Positions 10,570 to 57,528 of a stretch of 64,000 bases of DNA are shown one piece after another. The stretch covers positions 310,001 through 374,000 of the forward strand of contig NZ_BJWG01000001.1 in assembly GCF_007990245.1 (NCBI RefSeq). Reading direction: 5' to 3'. Within the stretch, counting starts at the first letter, position 1. The number at the start of each line of letters is the position of its first letter. Source of the DNA: Cellulomonas composti. Its GTDB lineage: Bacteria > Actinomycetota > Actinomycetes > Actinomycetales > Cellulomonadaceae. The notes beneath the pieces are model-generated. The model did not search any database and had not been told where the DNA came from. It saw only the letters and a program-made list of their open reading frames with translations. The translations under genes and the position numbers were made by a program.

Positions 10570-11232
10570 TCAGGAACCGCCGCCGACCTGCTCGATCACG
10601 GCGTCGGCGACCTCGCGCATCGTGAGGCGACGGTCCATCGACGTCTTCTGGATCCACCGGAACGACTCCGGCTCCGAGAGGCCCATCTTCGACATCAGCA
10701 GGCCCTTGGCCCGGTCGACCCGCTTGCGGGTCTCGAACCGCTCGGCCATGTCGGCGACCTCGGACTCGAGCGCGCTGATCTGCGCGTACCGGGAGATCGC
10801 GATCTCGACGGCCGGCAGCAGGTCCGCGGGGCTGAACGGCTTGACCACGTAGGCCATCGCGCCCGCGTCACGCGCGCGCTCGACGAGCTCGGTCTGCGAG
10901 AACGCCGTCAGCAGCACGACCGGCGCGAGGTGCGCCTTGCCGATCCGCTCCGCGGCGGAGATACCGTCGAGGACGGGCATCTTCACGTCCATCACGACGA
11001 CGTCGGGCTTGAGCTCGGTCGCGAGCGCGACCGCCTGCTCGCCGTCACCGGCCTCGCCTACGACGTCGAACCCCGCGTCGCGCAGCGTCTCCACGACGTC
11101 CATGCGGATGAGGGCTTCGTCCTCGGCGACCACCGCGCGGCGCGCGGCGCGCGGCGCCACGGGTGCGGGCGGCGCGGCCGCGGTGAGGTCGAGCTCGTCG
11201 GAGGTCGACTGGGGGGTGGCGTCCTTGGTCAC
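10570..11232 (-). CDS. pdtaR: ANTAR-domain response regulator, PdtaR-like
   Basis: Two-component output protein of 220 residues that binds RNA to prevent transcription termination. After a flexible leader (1-30) comes the receiver domain: acidic pocket EDE (37-39), phospho-acceptor Asp82 in MDVKMP, Thr in LLTAF, Lys in VVKPF. A coiled-coil linker (ALESEVADMAERFETRKR) leads into the ANTAR domain (KGLLMSKMGLSEPESFRWIQ). The GTG at 11232 was preferred to an upstream start at 11292 because the extra residues look non-coding; its ribosome site is weak, so a leaderless start is possible. No PdtaS kinase gene lies in the window. Position near polA resembles Rv1626 (from memory). Confidence 0.9.
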   Translation of the reverse strand: MTKDATPQSTSDELDLTAAAPPAPVAPRAARRAVVAEDEALIRMDVVETLRDAGFDVVGEAGDGEQAVALATELKPDVVVMDVKMPVLDGISAAERIGKAHLAPVVLLTAFSQTELVERARDAGAMAYVVKPFSPADLLPAVEIAISRYAQISALESEVADMAERFETRKRVDRAKGLLMSKMGLSEPESFRWIQKTSMDRRLTMREVADAVIEQVGGGS

Positions 11233-11346
11233 GGGGACAGCGTAGTGCGCACGGTCCCCCGGTCCGCAGCCCACGCCGGTGTGAGGCCGCACACGGCCCG
11301 CGGACCGGGCGCCACCACCCCTGTGCGGCCACTATCCTGGCGCCTG

Positions 11347-11419
11347 GCCCCGGTAGCCCAACGGCAGAGGCAATCGGCTCAAACCCGATCCAGTGCGGGT
11401 TCGAATCCCGCCCGGGGCA
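11347..11419 (+). tRNA. tRNA-Leu (anticodon CAA) with short variable arm
   Basis: A full 73-nt cloverleaf. The acceptor stem gccccgg (11347-11353) pairs with ccggggc (11412-11418) and the discriminator is A11419. The D-stem gcc/ggc closes a loop with gg. The anticodon stem atcgg (11373-11377) pairs with ccgat (11385-11389). The loop ctcaaac gives anticodon CAA at 11380-11382, reading UUG (Leu). The T-arm is gcggg-ttcgaat-cccgc (11395-11411). No CCA is encoded. The variable loop (11390-11394) is only 5 nt, whereas bacterial leucine tRNAs normally carry a long variable stem. The molecule is sound as a tRNA; its amino acid identity is less certain. Confidence 0.85.
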
Positions 11420-11509
11420 CAGCATCGCTGCAGCGCACGACGAACGTCACGGTCACCGTCGCCACCGCGACGTCGGGCGCGCAGTCGTGAACGTGTGAGA
11501 GACGACCGC

Positions 11510-12352
11510 TCAGCCGAGCACGCCGGCGAGGGCGGCGTCCATCGCGGCGAGCGGCGCCGGGCGACCCGTCATCAGGCGCACCTGCTCCGCGGCCTGGTGC
11601 AGCAGCATCCGCTCGCCGCCCACGGCGACGCCGCCCAGCGCGGTCCACGCCGCCTGCAGCGCGGTGGGACACGGGTCGTAGGCGACGTCGAGCAGCACGC
11701 CCGCGGGTCGCGCCGTGAGAGCCAGCGCCAGCTCGTCGGCGGCGTGCGGCGGGAGCGTGGACACGACGACGTCCGCGCGAGGGATCGTCGTCGCGGCCTC
11801 GTCGAGCCGGCGCAGCTCGACCGTGACGCCCATGCGATGAGCCGCCCGCAGCAACCCGCCCGCACGGCCCGCCGAGCGCACCAGGACGACCGGCGTGGTG
11901 CAGCCCAGCTCGGCGAGCGCCGCCAGGGTCGACGACGCGGTCGCGCCGGCGCCGAGCACGACCGCCGAACGCGCCGGGGCGGTACCCAGCCCCTCACGCA
12001 GCGCGGCGACCAGGCCGTGCACGTCCGTGTTCGCGCCGACCAGGACGCGTCCGGCACCGGCGGACTGCAGCAGGACGGTGTTCACCGCCCCGACCACGCC
12101 GGCGAGCGGCTCGACGTGGTCGAGCAGCGGCAGCACGGCGTGCTTGAGCGGCATCGTCAGGCTCAGCCCGGCCCACTGCGGGCCGAGCGTCGCGACGAAC
12201 GACGCCAGCCCGTCCTCGGCGACGTCGACCGCGTCGTAGGCCCAGTCGTCGAGGCCGAGCGCGGCGTAGGCGGCGCGGTGCAGCGCGGGTGACAACGAGT
12301 GCGCGATCGGGTGGCCGAGCACGGCCGCCCGGTGCGCGACCGGTTCGCTCAC
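11510..12352 (-). CDS. aroE: Shikimate dehydrogenase
   Basis: NADP-dependent reduction of 3-dehydroshikimate to shikimate, aromatic amino acid pathway; 280 residues. Substrate pocket HSLSPALH (18-25), catalytic Lys70 in LTMPLKHAV, catalytic Asp110 in GANTDVHG, dinucleotide loop VLGAGATASS and the C-terminal QAAEQVRLMTG that packs on the active site. The GTG at 12352 overlaps the stop of mltG by 4 bp (GTGA), so it is co-translated as the last gene of the alaS-ruvX-mltG-aroE run, an order familiar in actinobacteria. Confidence 0.93.
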   Translation of the reverse strand: MSEPVAHRAAVLGHPIAHSLSPALHRAAYAALGLDDWAYDAVDVAEDGLASFVATLGPQWAGLSLTMPLKHAVLPLLDHVEPLAGVVGAVNTVLLQSAGAGRVLVGANTDVHGLVAALREGLGTAPARSAVVLGAGATASSTLAALAELGCTTPVVLVRSAGRAGGLLRAAHRMGVTVELRRLDEAATTIPRADVVVSTLPPHAADELALALTARPAGVLLDVAYDPCPTALQAAWTALGGVAVGGERMLLHQAAEQVRLMTGRPAPLAAMDAALAGVLG

Positions 12353-13503
12353 TCGTTCTCCGCGGCCCAGTCCTGGTAGCGCGCCTTGCACTCCAGGAAC
12401 TCGTCCTCGGTCACCTGGAACTCCGTCTTGCCGTTGTCCGGGCTCGGCGTGCACCACCACATCCAGTCGCCGTCCGCGGGGTGCAGCACTGCGTCGATCG
12501 AGGCGGTACCCGGCGACGCGATGGGTGTGGGCGGCAGCCCGGTGTGCACGCGCAGGTTGAACGGGTTGCTCTCGTCCTGCAGCGCGGCCTTCGTGAGCTC
12601 CTCACCCGGTGCCAGTCCGTAGCGCACCGCGGCGTCGATCCCGAGGGTCCAGTTGTCAGCCAGCCGGTTCTCGATCGCGCGCGCCATCGTCGGCCGGTCC
12701 TCGTCGAGCTTGGCCTCGCGCTCGATGAGCGACGCCTTGTTCAGGACCGTCTCCCACTGGTCCTGGGCGACGCCCTTCTCCGTGAGCACCTGGACGGTCT
12801 TGGCGGTCATCTGTGACAGCAGGCTCACCGCGGTCTCGTCGGGCTGCACGGAGTACGTCGCGGGGAACAGCCACCCCTCGACCTCGCCGCCGGCCTCGGC
12901 GGGCAGCCCGATCGTGTCGGGAGCGTCGATCGCGGCCTGCAGGTCGGCCTCGGGGATGTCGGTCTTCTCGGCGACGCGCGCGACGATCTGCGCGGCCGTC
13001 AGGCCCTCGGCGATCGTCACCTTCGACTCGATCTTGCTCGCGGGGTTGAGCAGCGACAGGACCGCATCGCTCGCGGGCATCCCGAGCAGCAGCTGGTAGG
13101 TGCCCGGCTGGATCCCGACCGCGTCAGGGTTGGCGGAGTACGCGTCGGCGAACACGCCCGCGGACGCGACGACACCCGCGTCGGCGAGCGTCGCGCCGAT
13201 CGCCGCTCCCGAGTCACCCTCGTTGACCACGACGGTCACGCTGCCGTGCCCGGGGCCGGGGAAGTCGGTCGGCGACGCCGAGGCGGTGCCGCCGCTCCAG
13301 TTCTGGAGCATCGAGAAGACGAGGTAACCCGCGCCGAGCACGACGACGAGCAGGATCGCCACGACCCAGAACGAGCGGCGTCGACGACGCCGCTTCTCCC
13401 GCGCGACCGAGCCGCGCTCGCGCGAGCTGCGGGCACGGCTCGGTGCCGGCTCCTGCGGGACGTCGCTACGTTCTGGTGCCCACCAGTCGGTCTGGTTGCT
13501 CAC
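12349..13503 (-). CDS. mltG: Endolytic murein transglycosylase MltG
   Basis: Membrane-anchored lytic transglycosylase that cleaves nascent glycan strands; 384 residues. Cytoplasmic basic segment (residues 22-44, very Arg-rich), one membrane helix (45-64), then the extracellular YceG domain. The active-site motif ASLIEREA (257-264) keeps both acidic positions E261 and E263. Other family blocks are EGWLFPATY (209-217) and the C-terminal ADGDWMWW. GTG at 13503. It lies 70 bp downstream of a paralogue, so the two are a tandem duplication. Confidence 0.93.
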   Translation of the reverse strand: MSNQTDWWAPERSDVPQEPAPSRARSSRERGSVAREKRRRRRRSFWVVAILLVVVLGAGYLVFSMLQNWSGGTASASPTDFPGPGHGSVTVVVNEGDSGAAIGATLADAGVVASAGVFADAYSANPDAVGIQPGTYQLLLGMPASDAVLSLLNPASKIESKVTIAEGLTAAQIVARVAEKTDIPEADLQAAIDAPDTIGLPAEAGGEVEGWLFPATYSVQPDETAVSLLSQMTAKTVQVLTEKGVAQDQWETVLNKASLIEREAKLDEDRPTMARAIENRLADNWTLGIDAAVRYGLAPGEELTKAALQDESNPFNLRVHTGLPPTPIASPGTASIDAVLHPADGDWMWWCTPSPDNGKTEFQVTEDEFLECKARYQDWAAENE

Positions 13504-13573: not shown

Positions 13574-14788
13574 TCACTGTCCGTTGTCCGCCTGCCAGGC
13601 GCGCAGCTCGGCGTCGTACGTCTGGAACTCGTCGAAGGTCGAGGCGTACTTGGTCTCGCCGGTCTCGGGGTTCACGGTCACCCACCACACCCAGTCGCCG
13701 TCCGCGGGGTTCGCGACGGCGGCGATGGAGGACTGCGACGGCGTGGTGATCGCCGTCGGCGGCAGGCCGAACCGGACGAAGGTGTTGTACGCGTTGTCCG
13801 GGTCCATCGTCTGCTCGGTCGTGACCGGCTCGCTCGAGCCGAGCCCGTAGGCGACGGCGGCCTCGACGCTCAACGGCTGCTCCCTGTCGAGCCGGTTGAG
13901 CAGGACGCGCGCCACCATCGGGCGCTGGTCCTCCGGGACGGCGATGGTCTCGAGCAGGGATGCGAGCACGATGGTCGACGACCACTCGTCCGCCGGGACG
14001 CCGGCGTCGCGCAGCGCGTCCGCCGTGCGGCCGGTCATCAGAGTGAGCACCTGGGCAGCGGTCGCATCCGTCGGCACGTCGTAGGTGCCGGGGAACAGCC
14101 AGCCCTCGAGGTGCCCCTCGGCCTCGTGCGGCAACCCGAACGCTTCCGGATCGGCGGCGGCCGCCTGCAGGTCGGCGAGCGGGATCATGGTCTTCTCGCT
14201 GATCCGGGCGAGCGTCTGCACCGCCGTGAGCCCCGCGGGGATCGTCAGACGCAGCGACGCGAGGTTGGCGGGATCGAGCAGCGCGGCGGCGGCGTCGGCC
14301 GCGGGCATCTCGGCCTGCAGCCGGTACGTGCCGGGCTGGGCCACCGCTCCGGCGGCCGCATAGGCGTCGACGAAGACATCCGCATCTGCGACGACGCCCG
14401 CGGTCACGAGCGAATCGCCGAGCGTCTGCGCGGAGTCCTTCGCGCGCACCGTCACGAGCACCTCACCGTGCCCGGGGCCCGCGAAGTCGGTGACGACGGT
14501 CTCGGCGACCGTCGGGACGGCGGCCTCCTCGTCCCCGCCCAGCAGCGATGCGATCACGTAGGCGGCCCCCGCACACAGCCCGACGACGACGAGCACGACG
14601 AGCACGAGGCGCCGCCGCCGTTCCCGACGCTCGTGCGACTCGCGTGCGCGGTAGGCGGAGCGCCCGGCGGCGGCCGGGTCGACGCCGGCGGCGCGACCTG
14701 ACGGCGCGGTGGCGGGGTCGACGTCGGTCGGCATCACTTCGCCCTCTCCCGTCCGTCCGGTACGCCACTGCGTCTGGCTGCTACTCAC
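13574..14788 (-). CDS. MltG/YceG-like paralogue with altered active-site motif
   Basis: Tandem paralogue of mltG, 404 residues, same architecture: Arg-rich cytoplasmic part, one membrane helix at about 61-80, extracellular YceG domain. The GTG at 14788 was chosen because the reading then begins VSSSQTQWRTG, parallel to MSNQTDWW of the neighbour, and it overlaps the ruvX stop by 8 bp. The conserved motif reads ASLLETIA (276-283): the first Glu (E280) is kept but the second acidic residue is Ile282. EGWLFPGTY and ADGDWVWW are retained. It may be a weaker enzyme, a regulator of MltG or a specialised form. Confidence 0.88.
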   Translation of the reverse strand: MSSSQTQWRTGRTGEGEVMPTDVDPATAPSGRAAGVDPAAAGRSAYRARESHERRERRRRLVLVVLVVVGLCAGAAYVIASLLGGDEEAAVPTVAETVVTDFAGPGHGEVLVTVRAKDSAQTLGDSLVTAGVVADADVFVDAYAAAGAVAQPGTYRLQAEMPAADAAAALLDPANLASLRLTIPAGLTAVQTLARISEKTMIPLADLQAAAADPEAFGLPHEAEGHLEGWLFPGTYDVPTDATAAQVLTLMTGRTADALRDAGVPADEWSSTIVLASLLETIAVPEDQRPMVARVLLNRLDREQPLSVEAAVAYGLGSSEPVTTEQTMDPDNAYNTFVRFGLPPTAITTPSQSSIAAVANPADGDWVWWVTVNPETGETKYASTFDEFQTYDAELRAWQADNGQ

Positions 14789-15362
14789 CTGTCCGTTCGT
14801 CCTTGTCGTCCGACTCGCCCACAGCCCCCTGGCGCGCGGACCCGGAGCGTGCGGACGGGTCGCCGTCGACCCGTTCACCTGGGCGTCGTCCCGACGACCG
14901 CTCCGCGTCAAGCGCGTACTGCAGGATCACCACTGCGGCGGCCTGGTCGACCACCTGCCGGTGCCGGCGCCCGGACCGTCCGGACTCCGTGAGCGCTCGA
15001 TGTGCGGACACCGTGCTCATCCGCTCATCGACCAAACGCACCTGGATCGGTGCGACGGCGTGCGCCAGTACGCCAGCGTACGCGCGTACACCGTGCGCAG
15101 AGGCGCCTTCCGTCCCACTGAGGTGGCGCGGTAGACCGACGTACACACACTCCGCACATCGCTCGCGCGCCTCGTGCACGATCCTGGCGATGTCACTGGG
15201 CATCTGTCCAGGACGTGTCCGCGACGTGTCGCGCGCGAGAGTCTCGACCGGGGTCGCGACGAGGCCGTCCGGGTCGCTGGAGGCCAGCCCGACCCGGACG
15301 GTTCCGACGTCGACCGCGAGCCGCGCCCCGCGCACGACCTCGTCGTGCGAGTCCGCGCGCAT
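14781..15362 (-). CDS. ruvX: YqgF/RuvX-type resolvase-like nuclease
   Basis: RNase H-fold protein of 193 residues of the YqgF family (putative Holliday junction resolvase; in some bacteria a pre-16S rRNA nuclease). N-terminal ARLAVDVGTVRVGLASSD carries the first catalytic Asp; VYVGLPRHLSG and VRLVDERMSTVSAH carry the others, with the final Asp in VVDQAAAVVILQ. The last ~45 residues form a polar, charged tail not present in short homologues. The ATG shares one base with the alaS stop (TGATG), typical coupling. Confidence 0.9.
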   Translation of the reverse strand: MRADSHDEVVRGARLAVDVGTVRVGLASSDPDGLVATPVETLARDTSRTRPGQMPSDIARIVHEARERCAECVYVGLPRHLSGTEGASAHGVRAYAGVLAHAVAPIQVRLVDERMSTVSAHRALTESGRSGRRHRQVVDQAAAVVILQYALDAERSSGRRPGERVDGDPSARSGSARQGAVGESDDKDERTGE

Positions 15363-37474: not shown

Positions 37475-38568
37475 CGCGGCTTGTTCCGCTTCGGCTGTGC
37501 CGCCTGGCCCTGGTGGGAGCCCGGCCGCAGCTGACCGGCCGGCCGCACTCCCGACCCCGCGGCGATCGCCTCGGAATCGGGCGCGTCGACCAGGCCCGCG
37601 GCACGCGCGGCCAGCACCTTCTGCGTGTGCGCCTTGATCTTGGGCTCACGCTCACGCAGCGTGACCTCGATCGGCGTCGCGATGAAGACCGACGAGAACG
37701 TGCCGATGAGCATGCCGACGAACAGCGCGAGCGCGATGTCGCGCAGCGTGCCCGCGCCGAGCACGACCGCACCGACGAACAGGATCGCGCCGACGGGGAG
37801 CAGTGCCACGACCGACGTGTTGATCGACCGCACGAGCGTCTGATTGACCGCGAGGTTCGCCTTCTCGGCGTACGTGAAGCGCGTCTGGTCGAGCGCGTCC
37901 GCGGTGTTCTCGCGCACCTTGTCGAAGACCACGACCGTGTCGTAGATCGAGTACCCGAGGATCGTCAGGAAGCCGATCACCGTCGCCGGGGTCACCTCCC
38001 AGCCGATGCCCGCGTACACGCCGACGGTGATCACGAGGTCGTGCGCGAGCGCGACCAGTGCGGCGACCGCCATGCGCCAGTTGCGGAAGTACAGCGTCAT
38101 CACGAGCGAGACGAAGACGAGGAAGACGCCGATACCCGTGATCGCCTTGCGCGAGACGTCCGCGCCCCACGTCGGGCCGACGAACTGGCGCGACACCTCG
38201 GAGCCCGGGAAGGCGGCCTCGAGCGCGTCGGCGACCTCCTTGCCCTCCTCGTCGGTGAGCTCGGCCGTCTGGACGCGCATCGAGTCGTCGCCCAGGTTCG
38301 TCACCTCGGGGGACTCCCCGGGGGCGACGCTCTGGACGGTGTCGATGGCCTTCTGCTGGTCGCGTTCGCCCTCGACGCCGGCGATGACGAACTCGGTGCC
38401 GCCGCGGAACTCGATGCCCGGGTTCAGTCCCGGCTTGACCAGCAGGAACGCCGATGCGACGAGCAGGACGGCGGAGATGAGGTACCAGACCCGACGGCGG
38501 CCGACGATGTCGTACGAACGCCGACCGGTGTACAGGTCGTTGCCCCACTGGGCGAATCCGGCGGCCAT
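37471..38568 (-). CDS. secF: Protein translocase subunit SecF
   Basis: RND-like accessory subunit of the Sec translocon, 365 residues, six membrane helices with a large first extracellular loop (about 45-140). GIEFRGGTEFVI and YSIYDTVVVFDKVREN are the SecF signatures. The C-terminal ~55 residues (basic, ending QPKRNKPR) extend into the cytoplasm. The ATG shares one base with the secD stop (TGATG). Confidence 0.96.
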   Translation of the reverse strand: MAAGFAQWGNDLYTGRRSYDIVGRRRVWYLISAVLLVASAFLLVKPGLNPGIEFRGGTEFVIAGVEGERDQQKAIDTVQSVAPGESPEVTNLGDDSMRVQTAELTDEEGKEVADALEAAFPGSEVSRQFVGPTWGADVSRKAITGIGVFLVFVSLVMTLYFRNWRMAVAALVALAHDLVITVGVYAGIGWEVTPATVIGFLTILGYSIYDTVVVFDKVRENTADALDQTRFTYAEKANLAVNQTLVRSINTSVVALLPVGAILFVGAVVLGAGTLRDIALALFVGMLIGTFSSVFIATPIEVTLREREPKIKAHTQKVLAARAAGLVDAPDSEAIAAGSGVRPAGQLRPGSHQGQAAQPKRNKPR

Positions 38569-40625
38569 CAGTGCTCGCTCCCCTCGGCGCGACCGTCCTG
38601 CGGCGCGTCCGTCACGTCCTGCACGTCGTCGACCGTGTCGTCCGGTGGCGAACCGTACGGCTCGCTCTCGGCGGCTTGCGCCGCGCGCTCGGCGGCGCGT
38701 CGCTCCGCGATCGTCATGCCGCTCGTCGCCGCACTCGCGCCCGCCGCACCCGTCGAGCCGGTGCCGACCGGACCGGTGGCCTTGCCGGCGGTCCGGGTCG
38801 CCTTCGTCGAGGTGCCCGCTGCCGCGCCGACGAGGGCGTCCTGCGGCTCACGCTCGCCCTGGACCACCTTGCCCCGACCGACGTACCGCACCGGGGCGGG
38901 TGCCCCGAGCCGGCGCGGGTCGAGACCGGAGGCCGGGTGCCCGTTCCCGAAGAACCGGGTGCGGGAGATCAGCTCCATCACCGGGTGGGTGAACAGGAAG
39001 ACCACGACGACGTCGATGATCGTCGTCAGACCGAGCGTGTAGGCGAAGCCGCGCACGCCGCCGACCGCCAGGAAGTACAGCACGATGGCGGCGAGCAGGT
39101 TGACGGTGTCGGACGCCAGGATCGTGCGCTTGGCGCGGTCCCAGCCGCGTTCGACGGACCCGGTGAGGTCACGCCCGTCACGCAGCTCGTCGCGGACACG
39201 CTCGAAGTAGACGATGAACGAGTCGGCGGTGATACCGATGGCGACGATCAGACCGGCGACGCCTGCCAACGAGAGTCGATACCCGTTGCCCGGCAGGAAC
39301 GGCAGCAGCGAGTGCGAGAGCGCCGTGATCAGCCCGTAGGTGAGGATGCCGGCGACCGAGAGCGAGCCGACCGTCAGAAGACCGAGGGTGCGGTACTGGA
39401 GCATCGAGTACACGACGACGAGCACGAGACCGATGAGGCCGGCGAGCAGACCCATCGCGAGCTGCTCGGAGCCGATCGTCGCGGAGATCTCCTGCTCGCT
39501 CTGCACCTCGAACGTCAGCGGCAGCGAGCCGTAGTTGAGCTGGTTCGCGAGCGCGGCCGCGCTCGCCTGCGTGAACGTGCCCGAGATCTGCGCGCGTCCG
39601 TCCGGGATCGTGTCGGAGACGCTGGGCGCCGAGATCACGAGCCCGTCGAGCACCATCGCGAACTGGTTCTGCGGCGAGGACAGCTCGGCGAGCCGGGTCG
39701 TGACGTCCGCGAACTGGTCGGCGCCCTTGGAGGTGAACTCCATGTCGACGACCCAGCGGTTGCCCACCGCGCCGTTGGCGAGAGTCTCGAGGCCGGAGCT
39801 GGCCGAGTCGATCTCGGTGCCGGCGATCTCGACCGGGCCCAGGATGAACTTGGCGGTCCCGTCCTTGTCGCACGCGACGAACGCCTCGTCGGCCACGCCC
39901 GGCTCGCCGCCCGTGAGGTTCGCCGGGTCCGTGCAGTCGAGCTCGTCGTACTGCTGCTGCACCTCGTCGGTGATCCAGTAGCTCGCGTCGCTCGCGCTCG
40001 ACGGCTCCGACGGCCGAGCGGCCTCCGTGGCCGTGGGCGTCGGGGTCGGCTCGGCCGACGCCTCCGCGGTGGGCTCGGCGGTGGGCTCGGCGGTCGCCTC
40101 GGCCGTCGCGTCCGGCGCGGGCGCGGCCGCGGCGTCGGCCGACGGCTGCACCGACGGCTCGGCACTGGGCTCGGTCGTCGGGTCCGCGGTCGCCTCGGCG
40201 GTCGGGTCCGCCGTGGGCTCGACCGCGGTCGGAGCGCCGTAGACGAGCACGGGACGGAAGTCCATGTGCGCGGATCGACGCACGAGGTCCAGCGTCTCCT
40301 CGCTCGGCGTGCCCGGCAGCGCGACGACGATGTTGTTGCCGCCCTGGCTCGAGATCTCGGCCTCGGCGACACCCGAACCGTCGACGCGCTGGCGGATGAT
40401 GTTGATCGCCTGGTCGATGTCCTTGGACGTCACCTCGGAACCGTCGGTCGCGACCGGCGTGAGGATGATCTGCGTGCCGCCCTCGAGGTCGAGGGCCAGG
40501 TTCGGCGTCCAGCTCGCGTCACCGAACTTCACGTTCAGTGCGATCAGCCCGTACAGGGCGACGATGATCGCGCCGAGCGCGACGAGCGAGCGCACCGGGC
40601 GACGGCGGCGTGTGGGTGGGGCCAA
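38568..40625 (-). CDS. secD: Protein translocase subunit SecD with long Pro/Thr/Ala-rich insert
   Basis: SecD, 685 residues, using proton force to drive export. First helix at about 12-32, P1 extracellular domain, membrane cluster (about 375-560) with GLIVAIGITADSFIVYFER. Between HMDFRPVLVYG and SYWITDEVQQQY (about residues 128-215) lies a low-complexity PTAEPTAEATA-type insert within the P1 loop. The C-terminal ~100 residues are also a disordered cytoplasmic tail. The TTG at 40625 is the most upstream plausible start, before the basic MAPPTRRRRPVR. Confidence 0.94.
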   Translation of the reverse strand: MAPPTRRRRPVRSLVALGAIIVALYGLIALNVKFGDASWTPNLALDLEGGTQIILTPVATDGSEVTSKDIDQAINIIRQRVDGSGVAEAEISSQGGNNIVVALPGTPSEETLDLVRRSAHMDFRPVLVYGAPTAVEPTADPTAEATADPTTEPSAEPSVQPSADAAAAPAPDATAEATAEPTAEPTAEASAEPTPTPTATEAARPSEPSSASDASYWITDEVQQQYDELDCTDPANLTGGEPGVADEAFVACDKDGTAKFILGPVEIAGTEIDSASSGLETLANGAVGNRWVVDMEFTSKGADQFADVTTRLAELSSPQNQFAMVLDGLVISAPSVSDTIPDGRAQISGTFTQASAAALANQLNYGSLPLTFEVQSEQEISATIGSEQLAMGLLAGLIGLVLVVVYSMLQYRTLGLLTVGSLSVAGILTYGLITALSHSLLPFLPGNGYRLSLAGVAGLIVAIGITADSFIVYFERVRDELRDGRDLTGSVERGWDRAKRTILASDTVNLLAAIVLYFLAVGGVRGFAYTLGLTTIIDVVVVFLFTHPVMELISRTRFFGNGHPASGLDPRRLGAPAPVRYVGRGKVVQGEREPQDALVGAAAGTSTKATRTAGKATGPVGTGSTGAAGASAATSGMTIAERRAAERAAQAAESEPYGSPPDDTVDDVQDVTDAPQDGRAEGSEH

Positions 40626-56649: not shown

Positions 56650-57528
56650 TCACGGGTCGACGTCGAGCGCCTGCCGTCGGGCGAACAGGTCACGTGCGGC
56701 CTGGCACAGCTCGCCCACCGGCACCGCTCGCTCGTCGAGCGCCACGACGGGCGTGACGTTGCGGATCGAACCGGTCGTCGCGAGGTGGGCGCGACCGGCC
56801 GCGACGTCGTCGAGCACGTCGTAGCGCAGCTCACCCGGCTCGGCCTCCCGCACCGGAAGTCCTTCGGCCGCGCCCCACTCGAGCAGGAGCTCGCGCGTGA
56901 TCCCGGCCAGGCAGCCGCTCGTCAGGTGCGGCGTGAGGAGCTCGCCACCGCGCTCGACGAACACGTTGGCGCCGGTCCCCTCGCACAGCTCGCCCACCGT
57001 GTTGGCGAGCAGCGCCTCGTCGGCCCCGCGCCGGTGCGCATAGGCGAGCGCGACGACGTTCTCGGCGTAGGACGTCGTCTTGAGCCCCGCGACCGCCGAG
57101 CGCTCGTTGCGCACCCACGGCACCCGGACGACCCGTCCCACGTCCGCCCGGGTCGCCGGGCCTGCGAGAACGACGAGCGTGCCCGGACGGTCCCCGTCGT
57201 CGTCGCGGTTCGAGCCCAACGGCCCGGGCCCGGCGGTGAACGTGATGCGCACCCGGCCCGCGGTCGGGGCGAAGGCGAGGACCTCGTCGACGGCGGTCCG
57301 CACCGCGCCGTCGTCGGGCGGGACGAGTCCGAGCCCGCGCGCCGAGATCGCGAGGCGGCGCAGATGCCGCGTCAGGGCGAACGCCGCGCCCTGCACGACG
57401 CCGCACGTCTCGAACACACCGTCGCCGACCGTCAGGCCGTGGTCCACGCCGCTGACCAGGGCGTCCGTCGGGCCGTGCAGCCGGCCGTCGGCCCAGATCA
57501 CCACGCCCGTGGGGTCGATCGCGCTCAT
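56650..57528 (-). CDS. pabC: Aminodeoxychorismate lyase (fold-type IV PLP enzyme)
   Basis: A 292-residue fold-type IV PLP enzyme. PLP Lys in VAGLKTTSYAENVVAL; GVFETCGVVQGAAFALTRHL and GELCEGTGANVFVERGGEL are family blocks. Sequence alone does not separate it from branched-chain or D-amino acid aminotransferases, but it starts 4 bp downstream of pabB, so 4-aminobenzoate formation for folate is likely. ATG at 57528. Confidence 0.85.
   Translation of the reverse strand: MSAIDPTGVVIWADGRLHGPTDALVSGVDHGLTVGDGVFETCGVVQGAAFALTRHLRRLAISARGLGLVPPDDGAVRTAVDEVLAFAPTAGRVRITFTAGPGPLGSNRDDDGDRPGTLVVLAGPATRADVGRVVRVPWVRNERSAVAGLKTTSYAENVVALAYAHRRGADEALLANTVGELCEGTGANVFVERGGELLTPHLTSGCLAGITRELLLEWGAAEGLPVREAEPGELRYDVLDDVAAGRAHLATTGSIRNVTPVVALDERAVPVGELCQAARDLFARRQALDVDP

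Follow-up and report, generated by a model that had tools for sequence, protein, structure and literature searches.

Can a tRNA with a leucine anticodon and no long variable arm serve as a leucine tRNA in a bacterium? The question is raised by a gene in a 64,000-nucleotide stretch of the Cellulomonas composti genome, which was analysed at its full length and is called the window here. ARAGORN predicts a tRNA-Leu(CAA) at 11347-11420 (+), and positions 11347-11419 match the Rfam family RF00005 with 58.4 bits (E 4.7e-10) against a gathering score of 29, which excludes a chance match. The 3' CCA is absent from the gene. Its parts are the following:

11347..11419, + strand: short-arm (type I) tRNA-Leu, anticodon CAA, positions 1-73 (ARAGORN, Rfam, long-arm model R1)
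11356..11371, + strand: D arm GCCCAACGGCAGAGGC with a 3-bp stem (sequence; feature counts in 158 short-arm and 40 long-arm tRNA-Leu)
11380..11382, + strand: anticodon CAA, predicted to read UUG (ARAGORN; loop CUCAAAC at 11378-11384)
11390..11394, + strand: variable loop CCAGU, 5 nt (sequence)
11419..11419, + strand: discriminator A73 (A73 in 158/158 short-arm and 40/40 long-arm tRNA-Leu)

The acceptor stem has 7 bp and the anticodon and T stems have 5 bp each. In the D arm, which carries A14, A15, G18G19, C20 and A20a, the stem is made of G10:C25, C11:G24 and C12:G23, and C13 lies unpaired opposite A22; A15 (11361) faces U48 (11394) as the Levitt pair. A first-pass annotation of this DNA had described a CAA tRNA with a 5-nt variable loop and discriminator A, and these points stand; its remark that all stems pair has to be corrected at C13/A22 of the D stem. 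The molecule has the stems and conserved bases of a tRNA cloverleaf, as judged by Rfam and by covariation among 46 short-arm tRNA-Leu (see below), and what it lacks is the long variable arm of the class II shape. We conclude that 11347-11419 is a genuine leucine tRNA, conserved and of an unusual class. ARAGORN also called a tRNA with an odd anticodon (ga) elsewhere in the window, at 57395-57466 (-) within the predicted ORF 56650-57528; since Rfam gave no match there at its gathering score, that call is probably false.

The C. composti assembly (3.54 Mb, 34 contigs, 99.99% complete) contains 44 tRNAs by Rfam search. When ARAGORN was run on these 44 loci, it recognized three long-arm tRNA-Leu, with anticodons CAG, GAG and UAG, which belong to CUN codons only. 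A DNA search added a further leucine tRNA gene:

G000 C6:65333-65403: short-arm tRNA-Leu(UAA) (DNA search; unlisted by the Rfam genome scan)

Because this gene escaped the scan, tRNA counts obtained in that way can be incomplete, and for the same reason we built a model of long-arm tRNA-Leu, R1. The model was trained on 26 long-arm tRNA-Leu, including the three CUN genes of C. composti itself and leaving out the window tRNA. In a first look at the draft assembly, in which 150 of 3717 candidates were scored, R1 gave 94.9, 91.4 and 90.3 bits to the long-arm CAG, GAG and UAG genes, 70.9 bits to the short CAA gene (rank 4), 57.6 bits to the short UAA gene and at most 47.4 bits to all remaining matches, a ranking that is partly circular because the long-arm model contains the anticodon loop. 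The window tRNA scored 93.7 bits under a short-arm model, a value that we set aside as evidence since this tRNA was in the training set and the score arises by construction. The type II tRNA-Leu(CAA) that the first-pass annotation proposed to look for did not appear: Rfam, ARAGORN and R1 found no long-arm tRNA-Leu for UUG or UUA in the draft assembly, and apart from the window tRNA they found no tRNA with a CAA anticodon there. The short-arm CAA and short-arm UAA genes are the entire UUR leucine set found. We propose that these two would read the UUR leucine codons, with the long-arm CAG, GAG and UAG tRNAs reading only CUN. A LeuRS profile search of the genome returned one gene above the family cut-off, at C15:70446-73181, with other matches below.

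In E. coli, A73, A15-U48, G18G19 and A20a are essential for leucine identity and the long arm is unneeded, as given in the accessible part of PMC9976931. With the list taken from that source, the leucine determinants A73, A14, A15:U48, G18G19 and A20a are all present in the window tRNA. From the loci collected we parsed 723 distinct tRNAs, among them 198 with leucine anticodons, which comprise 158 short-arm (variable region of 4-7 nt) and 40 long-arm (11-19 nt) molecules. Besides A73, the two forms have in common A14 (158/158 short, 40/40 long), A15 (156/158, 40/40) and U48 (152/158, 40/40). They differ at base 9, which is A in 134/158 short-arm and G in 40/40 long-arm tRNA-Leu, at pair 12:23 (C:G in 151/158 short, G:C in 40/40 long) and at base 13 (C in 146/158 short, G or A in 39/40 long). 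G15 goes with C48 in L182, L203, L219 and L226. The 15:48 pair is apparently broken in L173, L189, L202 and L216, where the parser perhaps set the T stem one base off; these four were retained in the counts as misses.

Because the search patterns fix A20a, A22 and mostly G23, which biases the counts of these bases in pattern-found loci, counts were split by how each tRNA was found. The 28 short CUN tRNAs, which were not pattern-selected, show A9 in 19, C12:G23 in 23 and C13 in 20, and the 30 short tRNAs found through DNA similarity to the window tRNA show the same features in 29, 30 and 30. Taken jointly, A73, A14, A15:U48 and GGNA occur in 151/158 short-arm, 36/40 long-arm and 37/521 other tRNAs. 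When an unpaired 13/22 is included, which is our own addition taken from the alignment, the counts become 148/158, 36/40 and 4/521; the 28 short CUN tRNAs, not selected by the UUR patterns, have the determinants in 26 cases and the determinants with unpaired 13/22 in 23. A short-loop D-arm signature was seen in 129 tRNAs, all with A73 and a leucine anticodon (UAA 85, CAA 33, UAG 8, GAG 3), and in 0/525 other tRNAs of the parsed loci, many of which were chosen by UUR pattern, the other tRNAs within them not being so chosen. We propose that the single bacterial LeuRS would charge the window tRNA through A73 and the core (A14, A15:U48, G18G19, A20a), for which the long arm would be unneeded.

Conservation across actinobacteria, a check that the first-pass annotation had called for, could be documented. 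A match to the window tRNA is present in 55 of 58 genomes, its own included, i.e. in 54/57 relatives. All 30 loci returned, one being the window's own and 29 coming from relatives, are tRNA-Leu(CAA), and 20 further stretches from relatives gave 17 tRNA-Leu(UAA) and 3 tRNA-Leu(CAA), all short. No match to the window tRNA was obtained in three of the 58 genomes, G038, G040 and G054; the long-arm pattern found a tRNA-Leu(UAA) in G038, a tRNA-Leu(CAA) in G040 and nothing in G054. Across 396 genomes of the phylum, strict patterns found short tRNA-Leu(CAA) in at least 14 and short tRNA-Leu(UAA) in at least 65, and a wider pattern covering short and long forms matched at least 279. The strict patterns give minimum counts: when 25 of the 396 genomes were searched by DNA, 11 gave matches, all short tRNA-Leu(CAA), and 9 of these 11 genomes had been overlooked by the strict pattern. 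Short forms for both UUG and UUA occur in G000, G351 and G445 (by pattern) and in G150, G204 and G430 (UAA pattern plus CAA DNA search); the other combinations, with one form long and one short or with both long, are seen in further genomes among the matches listed. The premise of the first-pass annotation that bacterial tRNA-Leu is type II fails for the UUR decoders of many actinobacterial genomes searched. In public records, all 24 named loci have a tRNA-Leu(UAA) at the matched place, including Tessaracoccus, Mumia, Marihabitans and Pseudonocardia, and a Nonomuraea gerenzanensis record has a short tRNA-Leu(CAA). As a separate observation, a single genome, G321, has among the matches listed a short CAA (C1:2228444), a long CAA (C1:2395640) and a short UAA (C1:1811815).

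The window tRNA gene is separated by about 55 bp from a divergently oriented gene:

10570..11292, - strand: response regulator with ANTAR domain, divergent neighbour and conserved landmark of the locus (Pfam)

Its product scores 91.1 bits for Response_reg and 74.1 bits for ANTAR, and we presume that it resembles PdtaR of mycobacteria. The ORFs 12349-13503 and 13574-14911 (-), which we take to be MltG/YceG-like, are adjacent and alike by eye, and a tandem duplication is possible. We examined 64 tRNA-Leu(CAA) loci, about half of them from the genus of the window or near it. An ANTAR regulator lies within 700 bp of the tRNA in 48/64, with 40 short and 8 long tRNAs, and the two genes are divergent in 41 of these 48; among the remaining 16 loci, 13 have no ANTAR regulator in the stretch examined and 3 have it more than 700 bp off. 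Since long- and short-arm tRNA-Leu(CAA) share the ANTAR locus, the short gene is by position an orthologue of the normal tRNA-Leu(CAA). On a tree of the regulators, at least 5 switches between the arm types took place, with 5 changes forced by well-supported branches, and shuffled labels gave a mean of 7.6 changes, 2-3 of 500 shuffles being as low as observed; the tree tool's long-branch warning includes L258, L240, L242 and L243. Both forms are found in one genus (G341 long, G351 short). The two forms of tRNA-Leu(CAA) are alternative occupants of the ANTAR locus and have, very probably, repeatedly replaced each other in Actinobacteria.

How such changes came about bears on the origin of the short form. 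The short pattern is matched by 52 viral contigs, and viral loci contain short tRNA-Leu with all five leucine anticodons, as well as long tRNA-Leu. A DNA match to the window tRNA is present in 49 phage records, and phage Bonray has a short GAG and a short CAA alongside a long CAG. Short tRNA-Leu also occur within tRNA arrays of Cylindrospermum and Mycobacterium talmoniae records. When stems outside the core were compared in 37 chosen genes, identity was 62% between short and long forms within one family (17 pairs) and 71% within the same form across families (302 pairs); for the acceptor stem alone, the values were 55% and 76%. At the level of sequence, these identities make it more likely that a separate short-arm lineage took the place of the long gene than that the arm was simply deleted, but a form-specific constraint could yield the same result. 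We tentatively put forward, as an idea that falls somewhat short of probable, that short-arm tRNA-Leu form a tRNA gene lineage apart, distinct in D arm and core and represented by all five leucine anticodons in phages and arrays. This lineage would have moved into chromosomes and repeatedly displaced the long-arm UUR tRNA-Leu at its native locus, leaving some Actinobacteria to read every UUR codon with class I tRNA-Leu.

The alternative, which concerns origin and is separate from function, is that the short form arose repeatedly by simple arm deletion from the resident long-arm gene. Deletion would agree with the single locus common to both forms, but it has to account for base 9, pair 12:23, base 13 and the acceptor stem shifting together with the arm, and for stems that are less alike between forms within a family than within a form across families; we consider it rather unlikely. 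In tRNA arrays of the cyanobacterium Cylindrospermum (L095:2790-3026, L111:468-543), four CUN tRNA-Leu with short variable regions retain G9 and G12:C23 as found in the long type. Shortening thus seems to happen independently as well, and these genes perhaps represent a second, independent route to short tRNA-Leu.

We next consider what UUG stands for. In 49 window ORFs, predicted by a simple rule, UUG accounts for 37 and UUA for 1 of 1729 leucine codons, which agrees with the remark in the first-pass annotation that UUG is rare; 11 of the 37 UUG fall in two short ORFs that are possibly not genes. For 33 of the 49 ORFs, alignments with relatives from ten genomes were obtained (90 gene-by-genome alignments). 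Eleven window UUG sites yielded 46 codon pairs, which are not independent of each other: UUG 8, CUN 30, UUC 4, GUG 2 and AUC 2, so that CUN stands opposite UUG in 30/38 non-UUG pairs. The reverse count, from UUG in the relatives, is weak, the window codon being CUN in 13/31 non-UUG pairs and UUC in 8. PDB alignments of four proteins, with two or three homologues each, were read by eye, and Leu made up 11/19 of the residues facing seven UUG sites: Ile and Ile at ThrRS codon 428 (in both alignments shown); Leu, Leu and Leu at RelA 359; Leu and Val at RelA 560; Leu, Glu and Met at position 122 of a flavoprotein, Leu, Leu and Thr at its position 196 and Glu, Leu and Thr at 363; and Leu, Leu and Leu at SecD 453. 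Separately, residues ~135-206 of the SecD-like protein (38568-40625, -) aligned with a repetitive protein when PDB was searched, and they look low-complexity.

These exchanges bear on the possibility, also raised in the first-pass annotation, that the window tRNA carries another amino acid and recodes UUG. The type I shape would permit it, and some UUG sites do face non-Leu residues or codons, but the window UUG exchanges mainly with CUN, the determinants are those of leucine, the short-loop D-arm signature goes with leucine anticodons only (UAA, CAA, UAG, GAG) among the 723 tRNAs parsed, and other lineages hold a normal tRNA-Leu(CAA) at the same locus. SerRS and TyrRS depend on a long arm and MetRS, TrpRS and LysRS on their own anticodons, which counts against recoding as well. 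A classifier that ignores the anticodon, with long-arm tRNA-Leu and the other isotypes as its training set and right in 422/558 leave-one-out cases with no false leucine, was undecided for the short-arm family: it called 39 of the 158 short-arm tRNA-Leu leucine and 42 lysine, and it assigned the window tRNA to leucine by 4.1 bits and its UAA partner to lysine. We read this poor recovery of leucine as reflecting the core changes that accompany arm loss, but it is a negative outcome and counts against the leucine reading. We regard recoding as very improbable.

The same annotation had also allowed for a non-translational tRNA. A consensus scan found no promoter or terminator at the window tRNA gene; inspection of the upstream DNA showed one element:

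11333..11338, + strand: TATCCT, a -10-like element that ends 8 nt before the tRNA (by eye)

Elements similar to it lie upstream of L044-L047, again by eye. That the gene is a pseudogene or has a role outside translation, with UUG read by another tRNA, would fit the missing consensus promoter, the rarity of UUG and a short UAA tRNA that could in principle wobble to UUG. However, the stems of the short-arm family are maintained and covary strongly: among 46 aligned short-arm tRNA-Leu that we chose, the window tRNA included, 99.2% of cells are paired, and double-sided changes occur in 15/23 pairs, with 166 such changes against a shuffle mean of 31.6. The match in 54/57 relatives, with tRNA-Leu(CAA) at all 29 of the relatives' loci, and the lack of a second CAA tRNA among those found in the genome likewise speak against such a role, as does the M. 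tuberculosis tRNA-Leu(CAA), listed with 74 bp, which is modified by MiaA in vitro according to the accessible text of PMC9336784. We consider loss of translational function to be highly unlikely. Both alternatives are rejected on the leucine determinants, the CUN exchange, the covariation and the conservation; little speaks for them beyond the undecided classifier and the missing consensus promoter. An allo-tRNA with the 8/4 or 9/3 structure, both named in the accessible part of PMC7609411, is rejected by the 7-bp acceptor and 5-bp T stems.

Another reading in the first-pass annotation, a divergent leucine tRNA, is borne out by the E. coli determinants, the only CAA tRNA found, the locus shared with the long-arm form and the exchange of UUG mostly with CUN. 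Taken together, it is very probable that the window gene would be expressed as a working leucine tRNA of type I shape that reads UUG and is charged by LeuRS, and that the two forms alternate at the ANTAR locus. Most likely, the window tRNA decodes leucine in the ordinary way and lacks an arm for which bacterial LeuRS has no need.

With the long-arm (class II) tRNA-Leu of bacteria such as E. coli, the short form has in common A73, A14, A15:U48, G18G19 and A20a, a 3-bp D stem, an unpaired 13/22, a leucine anticodon and, in other actinobacterial lineages, the same chromosomal locus. Its variable region is shorter, at 4-7 nt against 11-19 nt in the tRNAs counted, and it mostly carries A9, C12:G23 and C13. 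Animal mitochondrial tRNA-Leu(UUR) is likewise a leucine tRNA without a long arm, and it is recognised via A73 and A14 according to the accessible part of PMC9976931. In contrast to it, the window tRNA is chromosomal and bacterial, with a complete G+C-rich cloverleaf and A15:U48, and long-arm CUN tRNA-Leu coexist with it in the C. composti genome. The accessible part of the same 2023 review excludes short tRNA-Leu outside animal mitochondria. A leucine label alone can mislead, since a human short-arm 'tRNA-Leu(CAA)' is a changed tRNA-Met that is probably silent, as stated in the accessible part of PMC8450103.

Short tRNA-Leu genes are already in print, as far as the accessible parts of PMC6582537 and PMC9336784 show. 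PMC6582537 describes one tRNA-Leu(TAG) whose variable loop is short, from a tRNA gene cluster of a mycobacterium; it is actinobacterial like the window tRNA, but there it is an extra copy beside a normal long-loop one, whereas the window tRNA is the only CAA tRNA found. PMC9336784 lists M. tuberculosis leuV (Leu CAA) and leuX (Leu TAA) both with 74 bp, a length that fits the short form, and the 12-nt RNase T1 fragment of the CAA tRNA printed there is found exactly in the short-arm L221-L223; the likeness is one of listed length and fragment, and in the passages on leuV and leuX the missing arm goes unremarked. The accessible part of PMC11541572 singles out tRNA-Leu 2, 3 and 5 as long-looped in M. 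tuberculosis. Our literature search, which left most subscription journals and preprints outside its scope and covered some sources in part, found no statement that actinobacterial UUR leucine tRNAs are type I.

In this bacterial genome, every UUR decoder found is an arm-less leucine tRNA, at a locus that holds the long form in other lineages. The short-arm UUR set amounts to a natural experiment on what the synthetase requires of tRNA-Leu. If our explanation is true, it would bear on software that assigns tRNA isotypes and, in Actinobacteria, on LeuRS inhibitors and tRNA-cleaving toxins, as well as on the use of phage tRNAs and on genetic-code work that relies on the long arm to separate leucine tRNAs from others.
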